In this document: positions 20,062 through 31,901 of the stretch, one piece after another
Position numbering within the stretch: the first letter of the stretch is position 1
Layout of the letters: every line of letters starts with the position of its first letter
Assembly: GCF_001570745.1 (NCBI RefSeq)
Contig: NZ_BCSG01000018.1
Location: 1 to 64,000 of the forward strand
Source: Alicyclobacillus mali NBRC 102425
GTDB taxonomy: Bacteria; Bacillota; Bacilli; Alicyclobacillales; Alicyclobacillaceae
Direction of reading: 5' to 3'
DNA length: 64,000 nt
Made by a program: the position numbers and the translations under genes
The notes under the pieces: generated by a model
What the model saw: only the letters and a program-made list of their open reading frames with translations
Told to the model about the DNA's origin: nothing
Database searches by the model: none

Positions 20062-20262
20062 TTACGCGCGGCCTGCGAGGCTCTGCTCAGCGTACGCCAC
20101 AAGGCGCTTCGTGATCTCGCCACCCACCGAGCCGTTCTGACGCGAGGTGGTCTCCGGGCCAAGGTTGACCCCAAACTCCGTCGCAATTTCGTACTTCATC
20201 TGATCCAGCGCGTTCGACGCCTGCGGAACCAGTGTGCGATTGCTACCCGAGTTGTTTGCCAT
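20062..20262 (-). CDS. Alpha/beta-type small acid-soluble spore protein
   Basis: 66 residues, the usual SASP length. It coats and protects DNA in dormant spores. Family marks are [20 protein letters not shown], containing the GPR protease region (YEIATEFG), and [17 protein letters not shown] good site AAGGAGGG lies ahead of ATG 20262. A SigG-type promoter is visible upstream, consistent with forespore expression. Confidence 0.96.
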
Positions 20263-20299
20263 CTTTCATGCCCTCCTTATGTGGTGGTGATGACACCTG

Positions 20300-20328
20300 T
20301 AGTGTGACCGGGCCATTCAGCCGTATGC
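20300..20328 (-). promoter_or_regulatory. SigG-type (forespore) promoter for the SASP gene
   Basis: On the minus strand GCATA (20328-20324) and CACACTA (20306-20300) are 17 bases apart, close to the SigG consensus GxATR and CATnnTA with a 17-18 base spacer. The predicted start gives a leader of about 30 bases before ATG 20262. Confidence 0.6.
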
Positions 20329-20440
20329 CCCATAAAGCGCGCCAAATCTTGACTCGCCTGGCGTTGCGATCGCGACCGAGAGGCTGTACATTGGATTGAA
20401 ATGAAGTCAAATCGCCAAGCTGTGGATGTGAGTGGAATCG

Positions 20441-26545: not shown

Positions 26546-27475
26546 TCACGCGACCGGCTGGGAGGCGTTCGCGCCGCCCGCCGCCGTGGCATTCCCCGTG
26601 GCATTCCCCGTGGCATTCCCCGTGGCATTCCCCGTGGCATTCCCCGTGGCATTCCCCGGTGTGGGCGATCCCGTCGACTGCCATTCGATGGGGCCCATCC
26701 CGAACGTGGACACGAGCTCGTCAAACAGCAGCTTCCCCGCGAGAATGTGCCCTGCCTCATTTGGGTGCCAGGCGTCGCCATAGTACATCTTCCACGTTTG
26801 GTGATGGGCTTCCATGTATAGCGTCATGTCGCGGTTCAAGTCGAGATAGTAGACGTTCGGGTTGTCGAACGAGGACACCACGTCGCTCTCCACCTGCATG
26901 TACGCTTCATCTTCGGCGTGATTGTATGTTGCCGTGGCTTTGGTCACGGGCGACGTGACCACGAGCACCACCGCGTGCTCGGCAAGCGCTTCCTCGATTT
27001 CGTCCGCGATGGCTTGACGAAAGGCTGCCAACGGCGTCTTGTCGTAGATATCGTTGAGAAGCCCCCAGGAGAGGACGACCACCTGAGGCCGATCTTGCTC
27101 CAGCCATGCCAGGTACTCGCCTTCTCGGTCAAGCGTCACCGGCGAGCCGCCGACCACCGTTCGGTCGTCATACACGTAGGTGGTGTCCGTCGACGCCGAC
27201 AGCGCGGCGAAAGCCCGGCGCAGGTAACTGTCGTCGTGAGGATCCTTCCATCCGTGCGCCATGGATCCTCCGACGACCATCACCTTCTCCGTCGTCAAAC
27301 GCGGAGACAGGGAGGCCGCGCCGTCAGCCGCAAACACGCTCGCGTCTCGGCTCTGCAGCCACCCCACGCACCATCCGCTCACGGCCAAAAGCGCGCCCGA
27401 AGCGATCCATCCGAGCCGTCGGCGCCACACGTGCGCGCGCTTAATCTCCGGTCGCATTGACCGGCTTCGCCTCAT
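26546..27475 (-). CDS. Secreted or anchored SGNH/GDSL-family hydrolase with GNAT tandem repeat tail
   Basis: 309 residues. A hydrophobic segment near residues 20-38 is a signal anchor or signal peptide. SGNH blocks are the serine in VVGGSMAHGW, the Asn in SWGLLNDIYD and the Asp/His pair in DAWHPNEAGH. The substrate is unknown; an ester or acyl group at the cell surface is usual. The C-terminus holds six perfect GNAT repeats encoded by a 12-base tandem repeat. ATG 27475 is chosen before the basic N-terminus MRRSRSMRPEIKR; ATG 27457 is possible. Confidence 0.83.
   Translation of the reverse strand: MRRSRSMRPEIKRAHVWRRRLGWIASGALLAVSGWCVGWLQSRDASVFAADGAASLSPRLTTEKVMVVGGSMAHGWKDPHDDSYLRRAFAALSASTDTTYVYDDRTVVGGSPVTLDREGEYLAWLEQDRPQVVVLSWGLLNDIYDKTPLAAFRQAIADEIEEALAEHAVVLVVTSPVTKATATYNHAEDEAYMQVESDVVSSFDNPNVYYLDLNRDMTLYMEAHHQTWKMYYGDAWHPNEAGHILAGKLLFDELVSTFGMGPIEWQSTGSPTPGNATGNATGNATGNATGNATGNATAAGGANASQPVA
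26586..26657. repeat. Six perfect 12-base tandem repeats (VNTR) inside the SGNH hydrolase gene
   Basis: The unit GTGGCATTCCCC (plus strand) occurs six times without mismatch and encodes Gly-Asn-Ala-Thr on the minus strand. Because the unit is a multiple of three, copy number can vary without a frame change. Confidence 0.97.
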
Positions 27476-27553
27476 GCCGACCTCATCCTCTCTTCTGCAC
27501 TTCCCCTGCCCTCCTTCGTGATAGCACACGTTTGTTGAAATGCGATCAAAACT

Positions 27554-27888: not shown

Positions 27889-29555
27889 ATGCACTGGTTC
27901 AAGTCGTTTACCGAGCGATTCGGACTTACGAACCCCGTCCGCGGCCGGTATCGCCCGCGCATTCCGAGCCAGCGCGACATGCCGACCTACACTGGCAATC
28001 TGGAGGACGCACTGAAATACTTCCGGAGCACGGTGGGACAGAGCGACGATTTCGTGGTACGGATCTTCGAAATTGGGAAGGTGTCTGGCGCGCTCCTGTT
28101 TTACACCAGCATCTGCGACAAGCGCGCGGTGGAGGATACGCTTCGCGCCATTCATCGCCACCGATTCCCGCGCCGCGCGCCGCGCCCGCTGCCGCAGTAC
28201 CTGGTGGAGCGGGTGCTGTCGGGATCGGAGACCATGTTCATGGAGAGCACCTTCGAGCTGAAACAAGCCATTGCGGCGGGAAAACTCGTCATGCTCCTGG
28301 ACGGCCACCCACCGGCGATTGTCATCAGCGCGAAGGCGGTGGAACACCGCGCGCCCGACCAGCCGATTCTCGAGACGTCGACCCGAGGATCGCAGGTCGC
28401 TTTCGTGGAGAATATCGACATAAATCTCGGCATGATCCGCCAGCACATGTCCACCGATACGCTTGTCGTGAAGCGCTGGTCCATTGGCGTGCGCTCCCAC
28501 CGCGTCGTGGCCATGGTGTACGTGCGCGACATCGCAAACCCCTTCTCGTAGAGACGGTGTCGAAGCGACTCGAGGCCATTCACACCGACATCATCAGCGG
28601 GTCCGCTGCGGTCGAACAGCGCATCGTGGATCACCCGTGGTCCCTGTTCAGCCTCGTGCGCATGACCTCCCGCGTGGATGGAACGAGCATGGAGCTCAAC
28701 CAGGGCAAGGTCGCCATCGTGGTGGACGGCGATCCGACCGTGCTGCTGGCGCCGGCGACATTCCAGGACTTCTTCCAGACCGTCGAGGACTATATGCACA
28801 CCTGGTGGGAAGCGACGTTCATGCGGGTTCTCCGCGTGATCGCGTTCATCCTCGCCGTCTGGCTCCCGGCGCTTTACATCGCGTTTGTCGACTACAGCCC
28901 GGACCTGCTCCCAAAGACGATGGCGTTGCAAATCGCGCAATCCCGCCAGGGCGTGCCTTTTCCTGCCGTGATGGAAGTCATCATCATGCAGATTGTCGTC
29001 GAAATCCTGCGCGAAGCGACGCTGCGCATGCCGAGGCAAATGGGACAAGCCATCAGCATCGTCGGCGGTCTGGTCGTAGGCGAAGCCACGGTCCAGGCGG
29101 GCATCGTCTCCAATGTGCTCCTCATCGTCGTGGCGCTGTCGGCCGTCTCCGTGTTCGTGACGCCGAGCTACGAATTCACGGTGATGTCGCGCCTCGGCGG
29201 CTGGGTGATGATCATCGCAGCCACGCTGCTTGGCTTCTACGGCGTGGTGCTTGCCACCATTTGGACCCTGTTCGAGATCTGCAATCTATCTTCCTTCGGC
29301 ATCCCATACGTGGATCCGCTGGGCGGCGATCACGTCAAGGACTTCTTCCTCGACGGGCTCGTGCGGCTGCCCATCACGGTGCTGGATCGGCGCCCCGAGC
29401 ACCTGCATCCCGTGGACACCACGGGTGACACGGACCTCATGGTGCCCATGCCGAACCCGCAGCTGGAGAAGTGGGAACCTGGCGGCAAGCGGCCTCACAG
29501 CGACATGCGCCGGCAAAAGGCCAAGTGGCGAAAAAGGAAGAGATTGGACCTATGA
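27889..29555 (+). pseudogene. gerA: Germinant receptor subunit A (GerA family), split by a -1 frame change
   Basis: The N-terminal half reads in one frame from ATG 27889 (site GGGAGGGA) to a TAG at 28549-28551 after ...YVRDIANPFS. The C-terminal half continues in the -1 frame as LLVETVSKRLEAIHTDIISG and runs to 29555 with the usual membrane helices and the family segment GQAISIVGGLVVGEATVQAGI. Joining ...DIANP to LLVETV restores an ordinary GerA of about 555 residues. The join lies at 28536-28542 (A AAC CCC), a -1 slippery heptamer. Explanations: a lost C in the C run (mutation or sequencing error) or programmed frameshifting. Both halves stay intact, so loss would be recent. Confidence 0.85.
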
Positions 29556-30703
29556 GCTTCCGGGGCGCTCGCTGGCTGGTCGCCGCGCAGGCCGCGGCGC
29601 TCCTGTTTCTCGCAGGGGGATGCGGTGATTACCAGAAGATCAACGACCGCTCGCAGATCATCGGTATCGGCGTAGATCCGGTACCGGACAAGCCGGACAT
29701 GTTGGCCTTCACGCTTCAGGTTCCCAATCTGGAAATTGCAACCCAACAAAGTCCCGGCCTGGGCACCGGAGGTCGGCAAGGAGGCGAGGCTGTACCCTAC
29801 AAGAACTTTTACGTCGAAGCAACATCGGTGCAATCCGCCGTTTCCCGGGCTCAGACGATGTACGACAAGTCGTTCTTTCTCGGCAACCTGGAGACTGTCG
29901 TGTTCCAGACGGGCCTCAGCGAGCGGGATTTGACGCGCGTCACCGAACAGCTGATGCGTGATGAGACCATCGACAAGCTCGCGTACGTCGTGGCGACGCG
30001 AGATTCGGCGCGATCCGTCCTCGAAGCGAGGACGAACGCGCCTCCTGCGACCACCATCGAAGCGATGTGGTACAACGACATGCCGCAGCGCGGATACTCG
30101 GCGCCCGAAAAGCTGTGGCAATTTTGGAGGGACGCTGAACTCATCGGCCGGGAGCCACACGCGCCGCTTGTCGAGGCCACCGACGACAGCATACGCATGG
30201 ACGGCACCGAGCTGTATTTTGGCTATCAGCCGGTCGGATGGCTCACGCCGGACGATACCGTGTTTTACAACTTTCTCGCGGGACAGGTTCGCGCCATTTC
30301 CATATCCATCCCCGACGCCCGTCGCACCTTTGACGTCCGCATCATGCGCTCGCGGGTGCATCTGCGCGAAGTCCCCACCAAGGACGGGATGGTGCTCTGG
30401 GACGACATTCAGGTGCGCGCCAACCTGAACTCGACGGAGACGATGGCGCAGCGCCCTCTCACGAATCGGGAGGTCGAGCGATACGAGGACGTCGTGGAGC
30501 GATACCTCCACGACAACTGTGTTCGGGTCTTTCGCGCCCTTCAGTCCGTCCAGGCCGATGCCGTTGGATTTGGCTATCGGTACCTGATCCATCATCCGGA
30601 GCGCATCTACGAAATTCGAGATCGCTGGGGAGACGAATTTGGCCACGCGCGCATCCACGTGACGGTGAGATGCCGGATCTCGCGCGAAGGCAATATTCTC
30701 TGA
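29552..30703 (+). CDS. gerC: Germinant receptor lipoprotein subunit C (Ger(x)C family)
   Basis: 383 residues. A lipoprotein signal with lipobox LAGGC near residue 24 is followed by the Ger(x)C fold: DRSQIIGIGVDPVPDKPDML, DKSFFLGNLETVVFQTGLSE, and a C-terminal domain with FRALQSVQADAVGFGYRY. It anchors to the outer face of the inner spore membrane and joins the A and B subunits. ATG 29552 overlaps the gerA stop (ATGA) and has AAGGAAGAG upstream. Confidence 0.93.
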   Translation: MSFRGARWLVAAQAAALLFLAGGCGDYQKINDRSQIIGIGVDPVPDKPDMLAFTLQVPNLEIATQQSPGLGTGGRQGGEAVPYKNFYVEATSVQSAVSRAQTMYDKSFFLGNLETVVFQTGLSERDLTRVTEQLMRDETIDKLAYVVATRDSARSVLEARTNAPPATTIEAMWYNDMPQRGYSAPEKLWQFWRDAELIGREPHAPLVEATDDSIRMDGTELYFGYQPVGWLTPDDTVFYNFLAGQVRAISISIPDARRTFDVRIMRSRVHLREVPTKDGMVLWDDIQVRANLNSTETMAQRPLTNREVERYEDVVERYLHDNCVRVFRALQSVQADAVGFGYRYLIHHPERIYEIRDRWGDEFGHARIHVTVRCRISREGNIL

Positions 30704-30725: not shown

Positions 30726-31901
30726 GTGAACGCGCAGAACGAGCGCCTGTACAACCTGTCGGCCTTTCAGGCCATCGCGCTCTTCTCGTCGAGCTTCCTG
30801 CCGGTCATGTTTTGGATCTACCCCACCGTCGCCGTGCACTACGCCCGACTGGACGCGCAGTGGGCCCTTCTTGTGACGGTGCTCATCGGCGTCGTCATCA
30901 GCTGGGTGCACGGGCGACTGAACGACCGCTTCCCCAACATGACAGGCCCCGACTTCGCGTGTTTGGTGTGGGGAAAGTGGATAGGCAAGGCCATCACGGC
31001 GCTGTATGTGCCTGTCTACCTGCTGTTTCTCGGCGTGAGCCTGTACTTCACGATTTCGCTCATGAAGTACTTCTTCCCGCTCACCATGCGCATGTGGCTC
31101 GCGCTCGCCATGACCGTCGTCGCATGGCGAGGCGCCTGGTGCGGGGTCGAGGCCATGGGCCGGGCATCGGCCATCGTCCACCCGCTCACCTTCGCGGGCA
31201 TCCTGGCGTCGTTCGGCGCCATCCTGGCGAACGCGGATCAGCCGCTCATCCCGCTCTCATTCACCAGCCCGTCGCAGACAGCCTCCGGGGTCTACCACCT
31301 GCTCCCGCTCTATCTCGGCATGGACCTCATCCTCATTGTAAACCCGTATTATCGGCACCGCCGCGGCAAGAGCGAGTGGTATCCGGTCATCGCCACCGCC
31401 ATCGGTGGCGTGGTGGTCATGCTCGTGTTCTTTTCCATCGTCGTCAATCTCGGATTCACGCCGACGGAGCGCCTCGCCTATCCGGTTCAGGCGGTGATTC
31501 AGCTCATCCGCCTGCGAGGATTTCTCGTCGAGCGCCTCGGCATCGTGATCATCATCCTGTCCGTCGCCTACACCGCGCTCTTCCTCGGCAATCATATCTG
31601 GGCGCTCTCCACCACCATCGCGCGGATTGTCGGCGTCTCCGATCACAAGTTCCGGCCGTTCACCCTCTTCGTCGCGCCGAGCATCTTCGCCATCAGCCAA
31701 ATCATCGCCACGACCATGCATGCCCGCGACATCGTCACGATGATCCTCGCGCCGGCAAGCTGGGTGGTGGTGGTCATCATTCCCGTATCGACGCACCTCA
31801 TCGCAAGCATCCGCGGCCTCCGAACCGACACCCGCGAGGAACTTCAGGCGCAAGGGCGACAGCGGCCGCCCAAGCGCAGGCGGATCCGAAGCTCGCCGTA
31901 A
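30726..31901 (+). CDS. gerB: Germinant receptor permease-like subunit B
   Basis: 391 residues, about ten helices, GerB/amino-acid permease superfamily; this subunit is thought to bind germinants. It begins LSAFQAIALFSSSFLPVMFW and has the conserved loop PDFACLVWGKWIGK. GTG 30726 follows AGGAGG (30711-30716) by 9 bases; GTG 30705 lies before the site and is unlikely. The operon order A-C-B is seen in several receptors. It ends in a basic, probably cytosolic tail. Confidence 0.92.
   Translation: MNAQNERLYNLSAFQAIALFSSSFLPVMFWIYPTVAVHYARLDAQWALLVTVLIGVVISWVHGRLNDRFPNMTGPDFACLVWGKWIGKAITALYVPVYLLFLGVSLYFTISLMKYFFPLTMRMWLALAMTVVAWRGAWCGVEAMGRASAIVHPLTFAGILASFGAILANADQPLIPLSFTSPSQTASGVYHLLPLYLGMDLILIVNPYYRHRRGKSEWYPVIATAIGGVVVMLVFFSIVVNLGFTPTERLAYPVQAVIQLIRLRGFLVERLGIVIIILSVAYTALFLGNHIWALSTTIARIVGVSDHKFRPFTLFVAPSIFAISQIIATTMHARDIVTMILAPASWVVVVIIPVSTHLIASIRGLRTDTREELQAQGRQRPPKRRRIRSSP

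Follow-up and report, generated by a model that had tools for sequence, protein, structure and literature searches.

The window analysed here, 64,000 bases long, is the beginning of one contig of a draft genome (85 contigs, 2,786,970 bases in total). On its forward strand lies a germinant-receptor operon whose first gene is broken. As a whole, gerA spans 27889-29555 with a -1 frame change inside; gerC (Ger(x)C; 29552..30703), whose ATG overlaps the gerA stop in the sequence ATGA (29552-29555), and gerB (spore germination permease; 30726..31901) follow on the same strand. Both downstream genes are intact in their open reading frames and Pfam domains, as the preliminary description had stated. 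Matches above the cut-offs to PF03323, PF25198/PF05504 and PF03845 in adjacent genes give the domain order of a GerA-type A-C-B operon; the same three proteins score below the stricter cut-offs of NCBIfam, and the A subunit does not lie in one frame, its halves being separated by a TAG at 28549-28551.

The ATG of gerA at 27889 is preceded by AGGGGAGGG. From this start, frame zero runs for 220 codons (27889..28551) and closes with GAC ATC GCA AAC CCC TTC TCG and the premature TAG; the sequence spanning the break (28531-28552) is ATCGCAAACCCCTTCTCGTAGA. The -1 frame is open from 28542 (CTT CTC GTA GAG ...) to the gerA stop at 29553-29555. The 5' part encodes most of the N-terminal soluble domain and matches the Pfam GerA profile at positions 2-180 (E 1.3e-32), and the 3' part (28542..29555) encodes the rest of this domain and then, to judge from the family, the membrane domain, matching positions 182-465 of 466 (E 9.8e-105). 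On the solved chain 6o59_A, the 5' part aligns with residues 10-194 and the 3' part with residues 198-272; by this alignment, the break sits inside the soluble domain, between residues 194 and 198. A short product of 220 residues would be without about 75 residues of the soluble domain, and presumably without the membrane helices as well. The heptamer A AAC CCC (28536..28542) stands exactly at the break, in phase as X XXY YYZ, and the two halves are related by -1; both points had been made before and agree with the sequence and the reading frames. The further claim that a slip would give an ordinary GerA holds for length, as no residue is lost or gained, but not for composition: the isoleucine of the closest relatives becomes leucine at the break.

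DNA matches to gerA were found in all 15 genomes of the genus Alicyclobacillus, the source genome included. The site was read codon by codon in nine (G001, G002, G003, G005, G009, G010, G011, G012 and G014), and all nine orthologues are uninterrupted, with 542-555 codons. None of these nine has the heptamer at the site of the break and none is split there. The gene is thus intact and in frame in relatives that have no slippery site, an outcome that the preliminary description had itself set against frameshifting; the conservation of A AAC CCC, which it had proposed to look for, was seen in 0/9. At the site, the orthologues have GCG or GCC, AAT or AAC, CCN and then a variable codon, which is ATT or ATC in the five closest relatives, GTA or GTC in three and ACG in one. 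The remaining five genomes of the genus gave weaker DNA matches. Among these genomes, GerA regions free of stops occur in G004 (1007963), G006 (4001961) and G007 (119647), and codon 259 of another region in G006 (2128902) is a TAG.

The match to gerA is 1,667 bases long in the window versus 1,668 in four of the five closest relatives; in G014 it is 1,665, the G014 gene being one codon shorter. Together with the codon comparison, these lengths place a one-base difference from the nine orthologues at 28542..28543, between the C run (28539-28542) and TTCTC. The window reads AAC CCC and then TTCTCGT, and the closest relatives read AAY CCN and then an ATT or ATC codon. Most simply, the lost base would be the one after the C run rather than one of the run itself. 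The original suggestion, that a run of five C lost one, could be had in two steps and is disfavoured by the ATT or ATC in the five closest relatives, so that it is not the simplest account.

Between the window and five close relatives, the 5' part of gerA has a dN/dS of 0.027-0.064 and the 3' part one of 0.035-0.064; for the pairs computed within a set of four of these relatives, the two parts have 0.032-0.069 and 0.031-0.073, respectively. Values for gerC (0.054-0.124, the comparison with G012 covering only 244 codons) and gerB (0.057-0.095) are looser than those for gerA. Residue changes unique to the window number three in the 5' part and three in the 3' part, one of these at the break. The corresponding counts are 0 and 1 for G002, 1 and 1 for G003, 4 and 4 for G009, and 7 and 12 for G012; G014 has three in the 5' part and was left out of the 3' comparison. 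Neither dN/dS nor the unique residue changes give a clear sign of relaxed selection after the lesion, and by these measures both halves are under purifying selection like that on the genes of the relatives. Such a pattern is compatible with a recent lesion, with an error and with retained function. The intact orthologues in the relatives and the lesion unique to the window are what one would expect of a recent pseudogene made by an indel.

The frequency of similar breaks was gauged by looking up frames of G002, each of at least 100 codons, in 324,772 bases of the source genome (contigs C18, C4, C30 and C32). This census took frames whose best match reached at least 88%, at a coverage of at least 90%, and so comprised 152 conserved frames (58,715 aa), 11 of which were flagged. 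Only gerA, the long halves of which show 95% and 96% identity, changes frame beyond the first 60 residues. Two others change frame within the first 60 residues (56 of 969, 47 of 690). In three long genes a single stop lies some 15% of the way along (103/666, 77/493, 67/451), and these are read as having starts placed too far upstream, on residue-level inspection of the first only (103/666). Two flagged frames, of 307 and 128 codons, are spurious and overlapped by better-conserved intact frames (97%; 95-96%); the last three are short (138, 111 and 109 codons), the 138-codon one being overlapped by an intact frame at 92%. In the reverse control, 7 of 163 genes of the source genome (G000) were flagged when read in G002. 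Coarser censuses, which had flagged 18/54 and 13/61 picks, many of them antisense frames, are superseded by the 152-gene census, and a generally poor assembly as the cause of the break is not supported by it. A 109-codon frame at 20065-20391 of the window (minus strand) contains two stops there and none in G002 and G003 (about 90% alike); it is possibly spurious.

Further GerA loci of the source genome lie on contigs C4, C30 and C32 (two), all four whole, and a fifth is apparently cut by contig ends (the start of C18 and C31). The window portion of this second gerA occupies 13-1254 on the minus strand (profile 3-422) and is cut by the contig start; its missing end (423-465) matches C31:4-132. 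Across the genus, the survey of 15 genomes yielded 116 GerA matches, with splits in G000, G006, G007, G009 and G011. Adjacent split matches occur in G006, G007 and G011; the pieces of the split in G009, and of one of the two in G000, are on different contigs, so that an assembly gap may be the cause. At three loci, a gerA gene that is otherwise open has a single in-frame stop (L053 in G012, TAG; L054 in G004, TGA; L055 in G006, TAG). Like the break described here, these are small lesions in A-subunit genes with other whole copies present, but they affect other genes or other places, and none of those read shares this deletion; the splits in G006 and G011, unlike that in the window, involve more than one lesion each. 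With broken gerA genes common in the group and other GerA loci in the genome, losing one receptor is plausible and would probably be tolerable. A comparable case is CBO1973A, a gerA pseudogene of Clostridium botulinum (PMC4161481) that likewise has a disrupted frame beside further germinant receptor genes; CBO1973A would encode the C-terminal region only, whereas the gerA of the window is whole but for one base. Titles and abstract beginnings among the literature matches listed contain no report of a frameshifted gerA in Alicyclobacillus.

In-phase X XXY YYZ heptamers number 18 in 6,360 codons (0.28%) of 17 coding sequences, gerB among them, that were picked by hand from the window. The chance of finding one exactly at the break is about 0.3%, and within seven phased places it is 2%; a coincidence exactly at the break is a priori unlikely. 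The related A AAC CCG occurs in gerB and also at codon 522 of two intact gerA orthologues (G012, G014). One synonymous GCA (GCG or GCC in the nine relatives) and the C run next to the deletion are enough to make the heptamer, which would then be a by-product of the two. PMC3711429 ties slippage in transcription to a homopolymer run of some eight bases or more, or to a combination of two shorter runs; the break, with three A and then four C, has no such run. Restart of translation in the 3' part is likewise not supported, the GTG at 28557, five bases past the TAG, having no clear ribosome-binding site by eye.

We regard a recent one-base deletion in gerA, at one of six GerA loci of the genome, as the probable origin of the break. 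In its favour we count the nine whole orthologues, the purifying dN/dS, the single break of the census, the recurrence of gerA lesions and the other GerA loci. Against it we count the in-phase heptamer exactly at the break, at about 0.3% a priori, and the strong constraint on the 3' part, which also suits a gene still making some full-length protein; the window-unique changes (three in each part) exceed those of G002 and G003, but not those of G012 or G009. A sequencing or assembly error in a gerA that is in truth intact is unlikely, yet it is the alternative that we take most seriously. The species is represented by one isolate, the genome is a draft of 85 contigs and neither part of gerA shows clear relaxation of selection, all of which would suit an error in a base. 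What speaks against an error is that the 152 conserved genes hold one frame change beyond the first 60 residues and that the missing base lies, most simply, outside a homopolymer. Sequencing indel errors cluster in homopolymers, and a lost base outside the C run therefore lowers the standing of an error at a homopolymer without removing it. In favour of an error, PMC3711429 takes frameshifted genes that are validated by BLASTp but unclustered to be sequencing errors and not genuine indels.

Slippage at the heptamer could matter in two ways, as rescue of a damaged gene or as programmed control. For rescue, ribosomes slipping by -1 on A AAC CCC at a low rate would compensate in part for a real deletion and yield a small amount of full-length GerA, with leucine in place of isoleucine; we hold this to be very improbable, in spite of the in-phase heptamer exactly at the break. 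Indels compensated by frameshifting are described in PMC5009743. In PMC4066793, 55 of 64 heptamers exceed twice the background with IS911 stimulators and 39 of 64 do so without a stimulator, codons made of pyrimidines throughout (CCC, for example) shift more readily than CCA, and the tetramer C_CC.C reaches at least four times the background with a pseudoknot. In the same source, however, CCN codons shift less readily on average than AAN and UUN, motifs that mix a purine X with a pyrimidine Z also shift less, and the sister motif A_AA.C_CC.A stays under the threshold in E. coli even with the IS3 pseudoknot. A_AA.C_CC.C is not among its 21 gene-search patterns, which were chosen partly for shiftiness and partly for under-representation (Sharma et al. 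2014). By these rules, A AAC CCC would belong to a weak class in E. coli, and slight slippage at gerA may occur because CCC is better than CCA and 39/64 motifs are active without a stimulator. Folding of five stretches around the break, four of them downstream, by a model without pseudoknots gave no structure beyond chance (z -0.76 to +0.29 versus shuffles), which lends no support to either rescue or programmed control. That a low-efficiency slippery site at the break itself partly sustains a chromosomal receptor gene that has suffered an indel, so that spores carry one germinant receptor in very few copies, is slightly less credible still; if true, such a rescue would be an uncommon instance of a bacterial chromosomal gene compensated by frameshifting. 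Programmed -1 frameshifting that sets the receptor dose is the most remote of the readings, notwithstanding a heptamer in phase, a preserved protein length and frameshifting of up to 13% reported for a 'Spore germination protein' cluster (PMC3711429). By the account in that paper, a programmed frameshift requires a cluster of at least five genes with a conserved site (Antonov et al. 2013); here the frame change and slippery site are conserved in none of the nine orthologues read. The cluster likewise consists of spore germination genes with a frame change, assayed for frameshifting in E. coli, but it comprises, as described, two adjacent annotated genes without fused homologues, whereas the break in the window is internal to a gene that is one frame in nine relatives. 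Among the three origins first proposed, mutation is hence favoured, error is left standing, and programmed frameshifting loses its footing in the nine orthologues.

The best reading is therefore that one redundant receptor operon has recently been lost, not that it is governed by a programmed frameshift. If the deletion is real, as we infer, the 220-residue fragment made in frame zero would end within the soluble domain, without the membrane part, and would be unlikely to form a receptor. A young lesion would explain why the 3' part retains its frame and conserved sequence. gerC and gerB, intact as they are, may be translated less; a drop in gerC translation is possible because its start overlaps the gerA stop, and coupling across this overlap would be lost. 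It follows that annotation should enter gerA here as frameshifted and that predictions of germinant responses should leave this operon out of the working receptors. Until relatives have been compared, little weight can be put on an in-phase X XXY YYZ heptamer that coincides with a break.

Breaks near the same place occur in other gerA genes. At L050 (G007:C1:3680500-3685500), a gerA changes frame at about profile position 180, where six T precede AAA. Two other genera have a gerA that is apparently interrupted within about 10 codons of the homologous place by insertion-sequence ends (L060/L061 in G026, L063/L064 in G028); these are of the type GTGTAAATT / AATTTACACC in G026 and similar in G028, resemble IS256, and in G026 are accompanied by an apparent 8-base duplication, judged by eye. 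A hotspot of breakage near profile position 180 is not convincing. Breakpoints were listed by hand, 22 in all or 14 once doubtful cases and those at contig ends are dropped; the list did not take in single stops, several small fragments or the breakpoints of G023. Scans of it returned P between 0.036 and 0.21, the window sizes having been chosen afterwards. Upstream of gerA, at 26584-26658, the window carries a perfect 12-bp tandem repeat of 6.2 copies (CCGTGGCATTCC), which encodes a Gly-Asn-Ala-Thr run inside the 3' end of the frame 26546-27529 on the minus strand.
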